The position numbers and the translations under genes were made by a program. DNA of 64,000 bases from Vicinamibacteraceae bacterium. Its GTDB lineage: Bacteria > Acidobacteriota > Thermoanaerobaculia > Multivoradales > Multivoraceae. Every line of letters begins with the position of its first letter. Within the stretch, counting starts at the first letter, position 1. Positions 54,938-59,967 of this stretch are shown here, one piece after another. The notes under the pieces are model-generated. The model did no database searches, had not been told where the DNA came from, and was given only the letters and a program-made list of their open reading frames with translations. The DNA lies in the NCBI GenBank assembly GCA_012270995.1, contig JAAXHG010000166.1, positions 110,818 through 174,817 of the forward strand, in the 5' to 3' direction.

Positions 54938-57900
54938 TCAGGGCGGTGCGGGAGGCTCGTTTGCGGCGCGGTCGGTTGGCGGCTGAACGGCGGGGATTTC
55001 CAACTCCCGGGCTCGCCGGTTCAGTTCTTCAAGCTGCGGTCCGGTCAACTCGGCGACGGCCTCGAGGATCGGCAGGAGCTCGGCCTCTAGATCCTCAAGG
55101 CGACGGCGCGCGCCGGCCGTCGGCCGGGCGGTGTTGCCGAAGACGTGAGTGTAGAGGTACGCGTACTGGTTGTCGATCCGGGGCTGGAAGTTCAGCGCGT
55201 CCTGGGAGACGCGGCTCCGCGACTGGATCAGCTGCTCGTCGAGTTCTCCGGCGCGCTCGAGGATCGCCTCGACGGCCGGTCGCAGCTCCGAGGCGCCGGC
55301 CTCGTCGAGGCGATCCTCGAGGGCGCCGGCCTGTTCCCGGACGCTGCGCAGGCCGGCGATCGCGTCGTGGGTTGCCGTCAACCGCGCCGACAACTGGTAG
55401 AGCATCGCGTACTGCTCTTCCAGATCGGCCTGGGAGATGTCCTCGAGCCGCGGGTCGGCGAGCACCTCGAAAGTCCGGCTGTCCGACCAGTCGGCTGTCG
55501 CGGCCTGGGCCTCGCCACCCTCATCGGTCCCCTCGTCGCTGCCGGCGACCGTCAGCGTCGCCCGGTAGGTCCCCGGCGGCAGGTAGGGGCCGCCGGTGTA
55601 CGACAGCGACATGACGGCGCCCTCGACCAGGTGAGGCGCCTGGCCGCGCAGGTTCCAGACGACCCGGTTGAGGCCCTGCTTCGCCTCGAAGGACTCGATC
55701 CGTGGACGCTCGTCCTCGCCGCCCTCGATCTCCTCGCCTTCCGGCAACGACGTGAAGCGCCGCAGAACCCGGTCGCCGCCGTCGGGGGAGATCGTCAGCT
55801 CGACACGGCCGGCCGGCTCTTCCGGGAGGTCGAACCAGATGGAAGCGCCATTGACGAAGCCCCCGCCTCCGCCGGGCCGATCGATGCGGACCACAGGCTC
55901 GGGAGAGAAGAGCCGGGGCTCATCGCGCTGTGTGCCGGCGGCGATTTCCGCGGCGCGCTCGCGCGCGAGTTCCCGGACCAGGCCGAGATCGTCGAGCACC
56001 CAGAAGCTCCGGCCCTGTGTCGCGAGCACCAGGTCCGGATTGCCGGCGTTGTTGTGAATCAGCAGGTCGGTGATCGGCGTGCGCGGCAGGTTCAACTGGA
56101 ACGACCGCCAGGAGTTCCCGCCGTCGAAGGAGGCGTAGAGGCCGAACTCGGTGCCGGCGAAGAGCAGGCCGGCGGCGCCCGGGTCCTCGCGCACGACGCG
56201 CACGAAGTGGTCGGCCGGCAGACCATCGGTCGCGGTGGTCCAGCTTCCGCCGCCGTCGTCCGTGCGGAAGATGTACGGCGTGTAGTCGTTCATCCGGTAG
56301 CGGTACACCCCGACGTAGACGCGCTCCGGATCGTGTTGCGAAACGTCGATCGAGTTGACCGTGCCGTCGGCGGGCATTTCGGCCGGCGTGACGTCGACCC
56401 AGGTGGCGCCGTTGTCCCGGCTGACGTGGATGCGGCCGTCGTCGCTGCCGGCCCAGATCTCTCCGGCCGTTTGCGGCGATTCCGCGAGCGCGAAGATCGT
56501 GTTGTAGACCTCGACGCCGGTGTGGTCGTGCTGGACGGGTCCGCCGGGCACTCCCTGCTTCTCGTCGTCGTCGGTCGTCAGGTCGGGCGAAATCGTCTCC
56601 CACGTCCAGCCGCCGTCGCGGGTGCGATGGACGTAGTTCGAGGTGTGGTAGACGACATCGGGATCGTGCCGGGAGATGAGGATCGGCGCGTTCCACTGGA
56701 AGCGGTAGCGAAGGTCGCGCGGCGCCGTGCCGTCCTGCATCTGGGGATAGAGGACCATGTTGCGGGCGGCGCCGCTCCGGTGGTCGTAGCGGTCGATGCG
56801 GCCCAGGTAGTTTCCCGAGTAGACGAGGTGAGGCTGCTCGGGGTGAACCGCGATGTGTCCGCTCTCGGCGCCGGCCACCGAGTGCCAGTGCTGGGTCGCG
56901 GTCAATTCGGGCATCGGCCGCGACGGCACGGAGATCGTGCTGTTGTCCTGCTGGGCGCCGTAGATCCGGTAGGGGAACTGGTTGTCGACGGTGACCCGGT
57001 AGAACTCGGCGGTCGGCTGGTTGTTCTGGGTGGACCAGGAACGGCCGCCGTCCACGCTGACGTTGGCGCCGCCGTCATTCGCCTGGACCATGATGTGCGG
57101 CTGCTCGGGGTTGATCCAGAGGTCGTGGTTGTCGCCGTGGGGCGTACCGACCCGCTCCCAGGTGGCGCCGGCGTCCACCGACTTGAAGAAGCGCACGTTC
57201 GACCCCCAGACCGTGTTCGGGTCGGCCGGGTCGGCGTGGATGTGGCTGTAGTACCAGCCGCGGGTGAGCAGTTCCGGTTCGTCGCTCACCCTGCTCCAGG
57301 TGTCGCCGTGGTCCTCGGAGCGGAAGATGCCGCCCCGCCCCTCGTCCGCGGTGACGATCGTCCAGAGCCGCCCGCGCCGCGCCGGCGACGCGGAGACGCC
57401 GATACGGCCGAGCACGCCGGTCGGCAGACCGCCCTCGAGGCGTTGCCAGGTGTCGCCGCCATCGGTCGAGCGGAACAGGCCGCCCTCGTCGCTGCCGTCG
57501 ATCAGCGTCCACGGCTTGCGCTCGACCCTCCAGACCGCCGCGTAGAGGACGCGGGGATTGAAGGGGTCGAGTTCCAGGTCGGCGATGCCGGCGTCGTCCG
57601 AGATGCCGAGCACCTGCCGCCAGGTGTCGCCGCCGTCCGTCGAACGGTAGACTCCCCGTTCCGGGTTGCCGCCGAAGATCTGGCCGAGCACGCCCACCCA
57701 GAGCACGTTGGGATCGTCAGGATGGACGCGGACGCGGCTGATCGCGCCCGCCCGCTCCAGGCCGATGTGACGCCAGGAGGCGCCGGCGTCGGTGGAGGCG
57801 TACATGCCGTCCCCGATCGAGACGTTGCCGCGAGGACAGGCGGAGCCCATGCCGACGTAGATCACGTTCGGATCGCTCGGCGCCACGGTCACCGCGCCGA

Positions 57901-58180
57901 CGGAGCCTGCCTTGAAGTCCTCGTCGGTCAGGTTCTCCCAGGAGATGCCCGCGTTCGTCGTGCGCCAGACGCCGCCGCCGGTCGAGCCCATGTAGAACGT
58001 GTAGGGGTGCGACGGGTGCCCGGCGACCGCGGTGACCCGCCCGCCGCGGCTGGGGCCGACGAGCCGGAACTCGATTCCCTCGAAGGGATCGGAGTCCTCC
58101 TGGCCGGCTGCCGGCGCGGCGGCGAGCGCAATCGCAAGAAGAACCGATGCGTGCCTGACAGTGCTGTCTGGACCGATCAT
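54938..58180 (-). CDS. Exported sortilin/VPS10-like BNR (Asp-box) beta-propeller protein
   Basis: ATG at 58180; signal peptide; FRLVGPSRGGRVTAVAGHPSHPYTFYMGSTGGGVWRTTNAGISWENLTDEDFKAGSVGAVTVAPSDPNVIYVGMG plus multiple SxDGGxxW repeats. Confidence 0.9.
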   Translation of the reverse strand: MIGPDSTVRHASVLLAIALAAAPAAGQEDSDPFEGIEFRLVGPSRGGRVTAVAGHPSHPYTFYMGSTGGGVWRTTNAGISWENLTDEDFKAGSVGAVTVAPSDPNVIYVGMGSACPRGNVSIGDGMYASTDAGASWRHIGLERAGAISRVRVHPDDPNVLWVGVLGQIFGGNPERGVYRSTDGGDTWRQVLGISDDAGIADLELDPFNPRVLYAAVWRVERKPWTLIDGSDEGGLFRSTDGGDTWQRLEGGLPTGVLGRIGVSASPARRGRLWTIVTADEGRGGIFRSEDHGDTWSRVSDEPELLTRGWYYSHIHADPADPNTVWGSNVRFFKSVDAGATWERVGTPHGDNHDLWINPEQPHIMVQANDGGANVSVDGGRSWSTQNNQPTAEFYRVTVDNQFPYRIYGAQQDNSTISVPSRPMPELTATQHWHSVAGAESGHIAVHPEQPHLVYSGNYLGRIDRYDHRSGAARNMVLYPQMQDGTAPRDLRYRFQWNAPILISRHDPDVVYHTSNYVHRTRDGGWTWETISPDLTTDDDEKQGVPGGPVQHDHTGVEVYNTIFALAESPQTAGEIWAGSDDGRIHVSRDNGATWVDVTPAEMPADGTVNSIDVSQHDPERVYVGVYRYRMNDYTPYIFRTDDGGGSWTTATDGLPADHFVRVVREDPGAAGLLFAGTEFGLYASFDGGNSWRSFQLNLPRTPITDLLIHNNAGNPDLVLATQGRSFWVLDDLGLVRELARERAAEIAAGTQRDEPRLFSPEPVVRIDRPGGGGGFVNGASIWFDLPEEPAGRVELTISPDGGDRVLRRFTSLPEGEEIEGGEDERPRIESFEAKQGLNRVVWNLRGQAPHLVEGAVMSLSYTGGPYLPPGTYRATLTVAGSDEGTDEGGEAQAATADWSDSRTFEVLADPRLEDISQADLEEQYAMLYQLSARLTATHDAIAGLRSVREQAGALEDRLDEAGASELRPAVEAILERAGELDEQLIQSRSRVSQDALNFQPRIDNQYAYLYTHVFGNTARPTAGARRRLEDLEAELLPILEAVAELTGPQLEELNRRARELEIPAVQPPTDRAANEPPAPP

Positions 58181-58238
58181 CGGCGCGTAGTCTACGCTGC
58201 CGCGCACGCTCGGCGCGGCTGCTACATTCGCCCCCACC

Positions 58239-59147
58239 GTGAGCGCCAAGCCCGCCGCCCGCTTCGTCATCTACACGGACGGCGGCGCCAGGCCGAATCC
58301 CGGTCCGGGCGGCTGGGCGGCCGTCGTCCTCGACGCGAAGGGCAACGTCGAGGAGATCTCCGGCGGAGCGCCGAGCACGACGAACAACCGAATGGAGCTT
58401 CAGGCCGCCATCTCGGCGCTTGCCAATCTGTCGGGGCCGAGCGCGGTCGAGCTCTACACGGATTCCCAGTACCTGCGGCAGGGCATCACCTCCTGGCTCG
58501 GGCGGTGGCGGGCTCAGGGCTGGCGGCGCCGCGACGGCGGTTCGGTCAAGAACGTCGACCTGTGGCGGCGGCTGGAGGGTCTGAACCGGCGCCACCGGGT
58601 GAACTGGCGCTGGGTCAAGGGTCACGCGGGCAACGAGTGGAACGAGCGCGTCGACGCCCTGGCCAGCGAGGAAATCGAGGCGCGGGGCGGCGGCGCCGCG
58701 GCCGAGCCGGCCTCGGACGAGGCGATCTCGCCCGACACCGTGCGCATCTTCCTCAAGGTCCGTTGCGTCGGCGGGCGCGGCGCGTGGGTCGCCGAGGTGG
58801 TGACGCCCGCCGGTACCCTCGAACGGTCCGGCGGGGCTTCGGACACGACGCCGAACCGGCTCGAGCTGGAGTGCGTCCTGGAGCTGCTCGGCGGCCTGCC
58901 GCCCGACCAATCGGCCGCCGTCTACACCGGCAACGACTACCTCAGGCGCGGCGCCGCGCTCTGGATCCACTCCTGGAAACGAAACCGGTGGCGTACCAAG
59001 GCGGGCAAGCCGGTCAAGAACGCTGAACTCTGGCATCGACTCGACCGACAGCTCGAGGAGCGGCGCGTGCAGTGGCCGGCGACGACCGGCGAGGCGGGCG
59101 AGCGGCTCAAGGAGCTGAAGGAGCGCGCCCGGGAGCTCTTCGCCTAG
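58239..59147 (+). CDS. rnhA: Ribonuclease HI with additional C-terminal degenerate RNase H-like domain
   Basis: First domain FVIYTDGGARPNPGPGGWAAVVL...TNNRMELQAAISAL...LYTDSQYLRQGITSWLGRWRAQGWRRRDGGSVKNVDLWRRL...WVKGHAGNEWNERVDALA. Second domain parallels it: NRLELECVLELL...VYTGNDYLRRGAALWIHSWKRNRWRTKAGKPVKNAELWHRL. Confidence 0.9.
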   Translation: MSAKPAARFVIYTDGGARPNPGPGGWAAVVLDAKGNVEEISGGAPSTTNNRMELQAAISALANLSGPSAVELYTDSQYLRQGITSWLGRWRAQGWRRRDGGSVKNVDLWRRLEGLNRRHRVNWRWVKGHAGNEWNERVDALASEEIEARGGGAAAEPASDEAISPDTVRIFLKVRCVGGRGAWVAEVVTPAGTLERSGGASDTTPNRLELECVLELLGGLPPDQSAAVYTGNDYLRRGAALWIHSWKRNRWRTKAGKPVKNAELWHRLDRQLEERRVQWPATTGEAGERLKELKERARELFA

Positions 59148-59386: not shown

Positions 59387-59587
59387 TCAGCGTCCGCGGG
59401 AGGCCGCTTTGGCTTGTTCAGCGCGCCGGGAGGTCGGCCGCGGCGAAGAGCGCGGCGCGACCGGGGCGGCGGCGCGTCGCTGACGGTCTTTGGCGACGAT
59501 CTCGTCGGCCTCGCGGATGATCCGAGCGCGCTGCTCGGGCGAGAAGGTCGCTTCGAACAGCTTGTTCCAGGGATGGCGTCCGCTCAT
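59387..59587 (-). CDS. Small basic protein, putative partner (antitoxin-like) of the RelE/HigB-like toxin
   Basis: 66 aa MSGRHPWNKLFEATFSPEQRARIIREADEIVAKDRQRRAAAPVAPRSSPRPTSRRAEQAKAASRGR; ATGA overlap with upstream toxin stop. Confidence 0.5.
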   Translation of the reverse strand: MSGRHPWNKLFEATFSPEQRARIIREADEIVAKDRQRRAAAPVAPRSSPRPTSRRAEQAKAASRGR

Positions 59588-59967
59588 CGGTTCGGTCCTT
59601 CGTGGCGGGAGTTGCGTGTGGCTTCGATCCGGAGTTCGAGAAGGTGTTCATCATAGAGCATGTCGGCCTGGCGAACGTAGTCACGGTAGAAGCGCTCGTC
59701 GGAGGTCTTGTGGCCGCCGATGAGGAGGATGGCGCTTCGACGCGGGTCGAAGGCGTAGAAGACCCGAATGCGAGGCCGCGTCTGGACGCGGAGTTCTCTC
59801 ATGCGGGAGTGACGCGAGGTCTTGACGGCGGAGGAATGGGGAAAGCCGAGACGAACGCCGTGCTTGACCAGGGCCTGGACGATGCGGGACGTCGCCTCTT
59901 GGTGGGGGACGCCAAGAGTGTCCCACCAAGCGCGGAACTGATCGGTGTACTCGACGGAGACGGGCAT
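59584..59967 (-). CDS. RelE/HigB-like (phage-derived Gp49-like) toxin
   Basis: VEYTDQFRAWWDTL...VQALVKHGVRLGFPHSSAVKTSRHSRMRELRVQTRPRIRVFYAFDPRRSAILLIGGHKTSDERFYRDYVRQADMLYDEHL. Confidence 0.82.
   Translation of the reverse strand: MPVSVEYTDQFRAWWDTLGVPHQEATSRIVQALVKHGVRLGFPHSSAVKTSRHSRMRELRVQTRPRIRVFYAFDPRRSAILLIGGHKTSDERFYRDYVRQADMLYDEHLLELRIEATRNSRHEGPNR

Follow-up and report, generated by a model that had tools for sequence, protein, structure and literature searches.

In the 64,000-nucleotide stretch from a Vicinamibacteraceae bacterium that was analysed here (the window), a cellular gene encodes a canonical ribonuclease HI domain followed, in the same reading frame, by a second RNase HI-derived domain that has lost most of its catalytic positions and is probably inactive. 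This tandem RNase HI with a dead twin is real and conserved. The features of the gene are collected in Table 1; residues named as in D10 or W81 follow E. coli numbering, and the two halves are called the N-domain and the C-domain.

Tandem gene and its catalytic domain

The whole protein matches Pfam RNase_H (PF00075) with an E-value of 4e-58 and 196 bits (cut-off 25.8) and NCBIfam ribonuclease HI (NF001236) with 272.6 bits (cut-off 160). RNase_H was the only significant match in a Pfam scan of the 302 residues, with no sign of a reverse transcriptase fusion, and the hybrid-binding profile Cauli_VI (PF01693) gave no match in the protein. The N-terminal half is identical to E. coli RNase HI at 70 of 131 positions and has D10, E48, D70, D134 and the His loop. 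For the analysis of conservation, 50 N-domains and 50 C-domains, each set drawn from 50 genomes of the window's class, were aligned with E. coli RNase HI, and H124 is kept in all 50 N-domains. The complete DEDD set and the profile scores above cut-off bear out the proposal of the first-pass annotation that residues ~1-150 form a canonical RNase HI with all catalytic acids. The tandem gene is the only RNase HI detected in the organism, being the sole PF00075 gene found in its genome; RNase HII is encoded elsewhere.

Downstream on the opposite strand (59584-59967, minus) lies a gene for a Phage Gp49-like (DUF891) protein (Pfam E-value 6e-12) that may be the RelE-type toxin in a toxin-antitoxin pair. 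On the other side, a divergent Sortilin-Vps10/BNR-repeat protein is encoded at 54938-58270 (minus); its longest open reading frame overlaps the 5' end of the RNase HI gene, and the true start is probably further in.

Table 1. Features of the tandem RNase HI gene (window coordinates; counts refer to the 50 relatives aligned)
Feature	Position	Strand	Evidence
Tandem RNase HI gene	58239..59147	+	302 aa, GTG start, single open frame
Catalytic RNase HI domain, residues 9-148	58263..58682	+	Pfam RNase_H, NCBIfam ribonuclease HI
Catalytic D14 (= E. coli D10)	58278..58280	+	D in 50/50
Catalytic E53 (= E. coli E48)	58395..58397	+	E in 50/50
Catalytic D75 (= E. coli D70)	58461..58463	+	D in 50/50
Catalytic D139 (= E. 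coli D134)	58653..58655	+	D in 49/50
Low-confidence linker, residues 149-162	58683..58724	+	pLDDT <50 at residues 154-160
Putative pseudo-RNase HI domain, residues 163-302	58725..59144	+	Profile matches, predicted fold
K173 in place of catalytic D10	58755..58757	+	D in 0/50; K 26, A 14, R 6, G 4
E209 (= E48), sole retained catalytic-position acid	58863..58865	+	E 27, H 15, D 8 of 50
G231 in place of catalytic D70	58929..58931	+	D in 0/50
D233, domain-specific, at the Q72 position	58935..58937	+	D in 45/50 C-domains; absent from the N-domain residues listed
Retained handle/basic protrusion WIHSWKRNRWRTKAGKPVKN, residues 242-261	58962..59021	+	3.17 bits (C-domains) vs 2.96 bits (N-domains)
K294, aligned with catalytic D134	59118..59120	+	K in 33/50; alignment less certain here

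Homology and predicted fold of the second domain

The two halves of the protein share 38% identity over 115 residues (BLASTP E-value 9e-20), and their Smith-Waterman score of 222 lies 32 standard deviations above the scores of 2000 shuffles (mean 32.6, maximum 67); the BLASTP value and the shuffle test together rule out chance similarity. Taken alone, the C-terminal half matches Pfam RNase_H (E-value 2.6e-14), NCBIfam ribonuclease HI (1.1e-24, under the family cut-off) and PDB structures of E. coli-type RNases HI (best E-value 7.7e-22), and it is identical to E. coli RNase HI at 49 of 130 positions. The identity between the halves and the profile and PDB matches confirm that residues ~165-300 are a second RNase H-like copy.

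A full-length AlphaFold model built on a 20-row alignment (pLDDT 88.7) shows strands and helices in the RNase H order for each half, with residues 154-160 disordered between them, and its pTM of 0.59 means that the mutual placement of the two domains is not reliably predicted. Because the best 50 Foldseek matches of the full-length model were all one domain in size, the C-domain was modelled separately, which gave a pLDDT of 91.5 and a pTM of 0.85. Compared with solved structures, this model has E. coli RNase HI as its nearest match (E-value 1.4e-13, TM 0.85, rmsd 2.2 Å), and the best 50 structures are RNase HI throughout. The structure prediction that had been proposed as a check on the C-terminal part thus yielded an RNase H fold. 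An assembly or frameshift artefact is ruled out by the occurrence of the tandem in one frame at 19 other loci and in 49 other genomes, which come from two collections.

Loss of catalytic residues

The first-pass annotation had described the catalytic positions of the second copy as mostly lost. This holds for D10 and D70, replaced by K173 and G231, and for D134, replaced probably by K294, with the qualification that E209 still stands at the E48 position; it is the only one of the four catalytic residues that the window C-domain has kept. Among the 50 relatives, D70 has become Gly, Ala, Val or another non-acidic residue, and at most one C-domain keeps D134, a count that depends on the alignment. 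The His loop is absent from the C-domain, and N16, N44 and G11, which lie near the hybrid interface, are lost as well. The region of the terminal Asp had been reported as missing altogether; the catalytic Asp is indeed absent there, but the final helix of the fold is predicted. From these replacements we infer that the second domain is catalytically dead. It is very improbable that it still cuts through a rebuilt active site made of E48 and new residues: an acid occupies the E48 position in 35 of 50 C-domains and the change of Q72 to Asp brings another close to the site in 45, but the D10 and D70 positions are never acidic, lysine is the commonest residue at D10, and His stands at E48 in 15 of 50. 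Moreover, Q72 is not, to our knowledge, among the known metal ligands of RNase HI.

Conservation of the handle and selection on the second domain

The substrate-channel and handle positions T43, N45, W81, W85, W90, V98 and W104 are kept in the C-domain. Among the 50 C-domains, Y73, W81, W85 and W104 are invariant, W90 is present in 49 and N45 in 48. The ratio of information content between C- and N-domains is 1.07 in the handle (E. coli 81-100), the only segment above 1; it falls to 0.71 in beta1, to 0.50 in the final helix, to 0.43 in the loop between beta1 and beta2 and to 0.39 in the His loop. After removal of near-copies, the windows starting at 79-83 rank best of all 20-column windows in C-domain relative to N-domain conservation, and none of 20000 random 20-column draws equalled the handle, a permutation result that serves as a guide only, since neighbouring columns are not independent. 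The median net charge of the handle is +5 in N- and C-domains alike. The earlier remark that a basic handle-like segment is kept therefore stands in a stronger form, the handle being the best-conserved segment of the C-domain relative to the N-domain.

Three residues are newly near-fixed in the C-domains (G11 to Val, Q72 to Asp, I78 to Ala), which implies a new constraint and not decay. Among close relatives the median dN/dS is 0.18 for the C-domain (maximum 0.31) and 0.13 for the N-domain; the value of 0.18 indicates purifying selection on the C-domain. Because it is conserved in relatives, the second domain is, on this comparative evidence, a maintained module. A functionless, decaying duplicate would account for the loss of the catalytic acids and for the faster evolution of the C-domains, but it is barely credible given a frame that is open in 50 relatives across several families, the dN/dS of the domain and its invariant Tyr and Trp residues; residue conservation in the 50 relatives together with dN/dS led us to reject it. 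The pattern is what a domain that had given up cutting but held on to its binding surface should look like.

Distribution and origin

A scan of genome contigs recovered the full tandem at 19 loci (48-87% identical), whose records are labelled Acidobacteria, Holophagales, Thermoanaerobaculia and Candidatus Multivorans. The search of related genomes for the tandem architecture, suggested with the original observation, covered 149 genomes of that class and found it in one frame in 50 of them, belonging to seven or eight families; in a 51st genome the tandem runs off the end of a contig. No further RNase HI gene was seen in the other 49 tandem-bearing genomes, except for a second tandem copy in one of them. 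Other members of the class (G023-G046, G148 and others) have no tandem and carry different single-domain RNase H genes instead, which may mean that several lineages of the class have lost the tandem gene or had it displaced.

Outside the class, the matches listed for 349 genomes of the same phylum contained no tandem. The same held for 299 genomes from the phylum to which an alphaproteobacterial locus belongs and for 247 from that of a Desulfovibrio locus; in all three sets very diverged cases could have escaped the best matches listed. Among the matches listed for 251 genomes from the phylum of a Chloroflexi locus, the tandem occurs in two (G638 and G646; loci L181 and L182). In their second copies D10 is replaced by Arg and D70 by Thr or Ile, so that these copies too are presumably dead. 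When viral contigs were searched with the C-domain, no tandem protein came up, just single RNase H-like ones. On four IMG/VR contigs (L168:1860-2312, L171, L173 and L174), small free-standing RNase H-like proteins have altered catalytic positions and keep a 'PVKNAELW'-type segment; the L168 protein has Glu at D10 and Ser at D70. They apparently represent a second, separate set of dead RNases HI.

In a phylogenetic tree the C-domains form one group (support 95/89), separate from the N-domains and from single RNases HI. The C- and N-domain trees split the lineages into the same two sets, which makes it most likely that the pair has been inherited together since before these families diverged. 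The C-domains evolve faster than the N-domains. Their branches are long and the same residues have been lost in all of them, so the grouping may partly be a product of convergence. A common origin of the acidobacterial N- and C-domains by duplication was not rejected (p-AU 0.134), and neither were constraints that made the Chloroflexota pairs duplications of their own (p-AU 0.347 and 0.295). Of the internal duplication originally proposed, the derivation of the second domain from an RNase HI is confirmed; duplication is its likely origin and fusion of another RNase HI the alternative, and the tree supports neither over the other. The Chloroflexota tandems possibly arose by an independent duplication.

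Proposed function and relation to known systems

We consider it fairly probable, from the residues kept and lost, that the N-domain cuts and that the dead C-domain is a module for binding RNA:DNA hybrids (or duplexes) that tethers it. The N-domain would cleave the RNA of RNA:DNA hybrids through its normal DEDD site. The C-domain, with the same predicted fold but with the metal-binding acids gone and the tryptophan/basic handle and several substrate-channel positions kept, would grip the hybrid or a neighbouring duplex without cutting. Through the short flexible linker it would tether the catalytic domain to the substrate and so might raise affinity and allow more cuts at each encounter, by analogy with the unrelated hybrid-binding domain (HBD) found in RNases H1 of eukaryotes and some bacteria. 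The residues kept suggest nucleic-acid binding; hybrid binding and an effect on activity are what we infer. Counting against this reading, the retained tryptophans also help to pack the fold, the hybrid-interface residues named above are lost, and the pTM of the full-length model is too low to predict how the two domains would sit on a substrate.

The hybrid-gripping reading fits the retained residues, the charge of the handle and the presence of a hybrid-binding-type domain at the same C-terminal place in other Chloroflexota RNases HI. At three such loci (L183, L184 and L186), an RNase HI is followed by a C-terminal stretch resembling an HBD, in the position taken by the dead domain in the tandem; the stretch of L184 scores 20.9 bits against PF01693, just under the cut-off of 21.0. 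Pseudoenzymes have often turned into scaffolds, and this common fate, the loss of the nucleic-acid contact positions N16 and N44, and the C-domain-specific Q72 to Asp and I78 to Ala, which could form a new interface, would suit a module with a part in structure, in dimerisation or in docking to other proteins (SSB, the replisome or RNA polymerase, for example) that itself makes no contact with nucleic acid. We regard such a module as unlikely, however, given that the best-kept segment is the basic, tryptophan-rich handle while the remainder drifts. It is still less likely that the copy is autoinhibitory or regulatory, competing with the active domain or covering it, even if the same fold and an equally charged handle could compete for the same substrate.

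Bacterial RNase HI (RnhA; PF00075; PRK00203) shares with the tandem the canonical N-domain and the fold of the C-domain, but is usually a single domain of ~150 residues, whereas the tandem adds a copy without catalytic acids or His loop. RNase H1 with an HBD (dsRHbd; Cauli_VI, PF01693) likewise joins a catalytic RNase H by a linker to an accessory, presumably hybrid-binding module; the HBD, however, is a small unrelated domain of ~44 residues, and the accessory module here is itself derived from RNase H. HBDs change the affinity and turnover of RNase H1 (PMC7657459), and a C-terminal HBD has been reported in a few bacteria (PMC1950709). Drosophila RNase H1 resembles the tandem in having a second, non-catalytic hybrid-binding domain, which modulates turnover and substrate release (PMC7657459), but that module is HBD-like and not RNase H-like.

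The nearest precedent is the tether or connection domain of retroviruses. In retroviral dual RNase H the older copy has decayed to the tether (PMC9040795), and a survey of the RNase H superfamily found multiple RNase H-like domains mainly in Pol proteins of retroelements (PMC3985635). The retroviral and Athila/Tat proteins also combine an active and a degenerate RNase H fold in one polypeptide (PMC9040795, PMC3985635); there the pair is part of a reverse transcriptase, with the degenerate copy first and the active one newly acquired, whereas the tandem is a free cellular RNase HI in which the degenerate copy follows the active one. Our searches of the open-licence literature turned up no cellular RNase HI described as carrying a dead RNase H copy. 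A broader proposal, decidedly tentative and somewhat improbable, is that cellular RNases HI have twice or more (in this Acidobacteriota class and in the Chloroflexota) made another copy of their catalytic fold into a metal-free reader of RNA:DNA hybrids, in which lysines that replace the acids would hold the phosphate backbone; the result would be a self-derived substitute for the HBD and would parallel, in bacteria, the tether domain of retroviruses.

In a standard family scan the tandem gene would be labelled as a plain ribonuclease HI. As a conserved pseudoenzyme within a heavily studied nuclease, the second domain makes the separation of substrate grip from catalysis in RNase H testable with natural parts. 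Should the dead copy bind hybrids, it would be an R-loop reader that comes ready-made and does not cut, and the retroviral layout of a duplicated and degenerate RNase H in reverse transcriptase would have a counterpart in a bacterial housekeeping enzyme.
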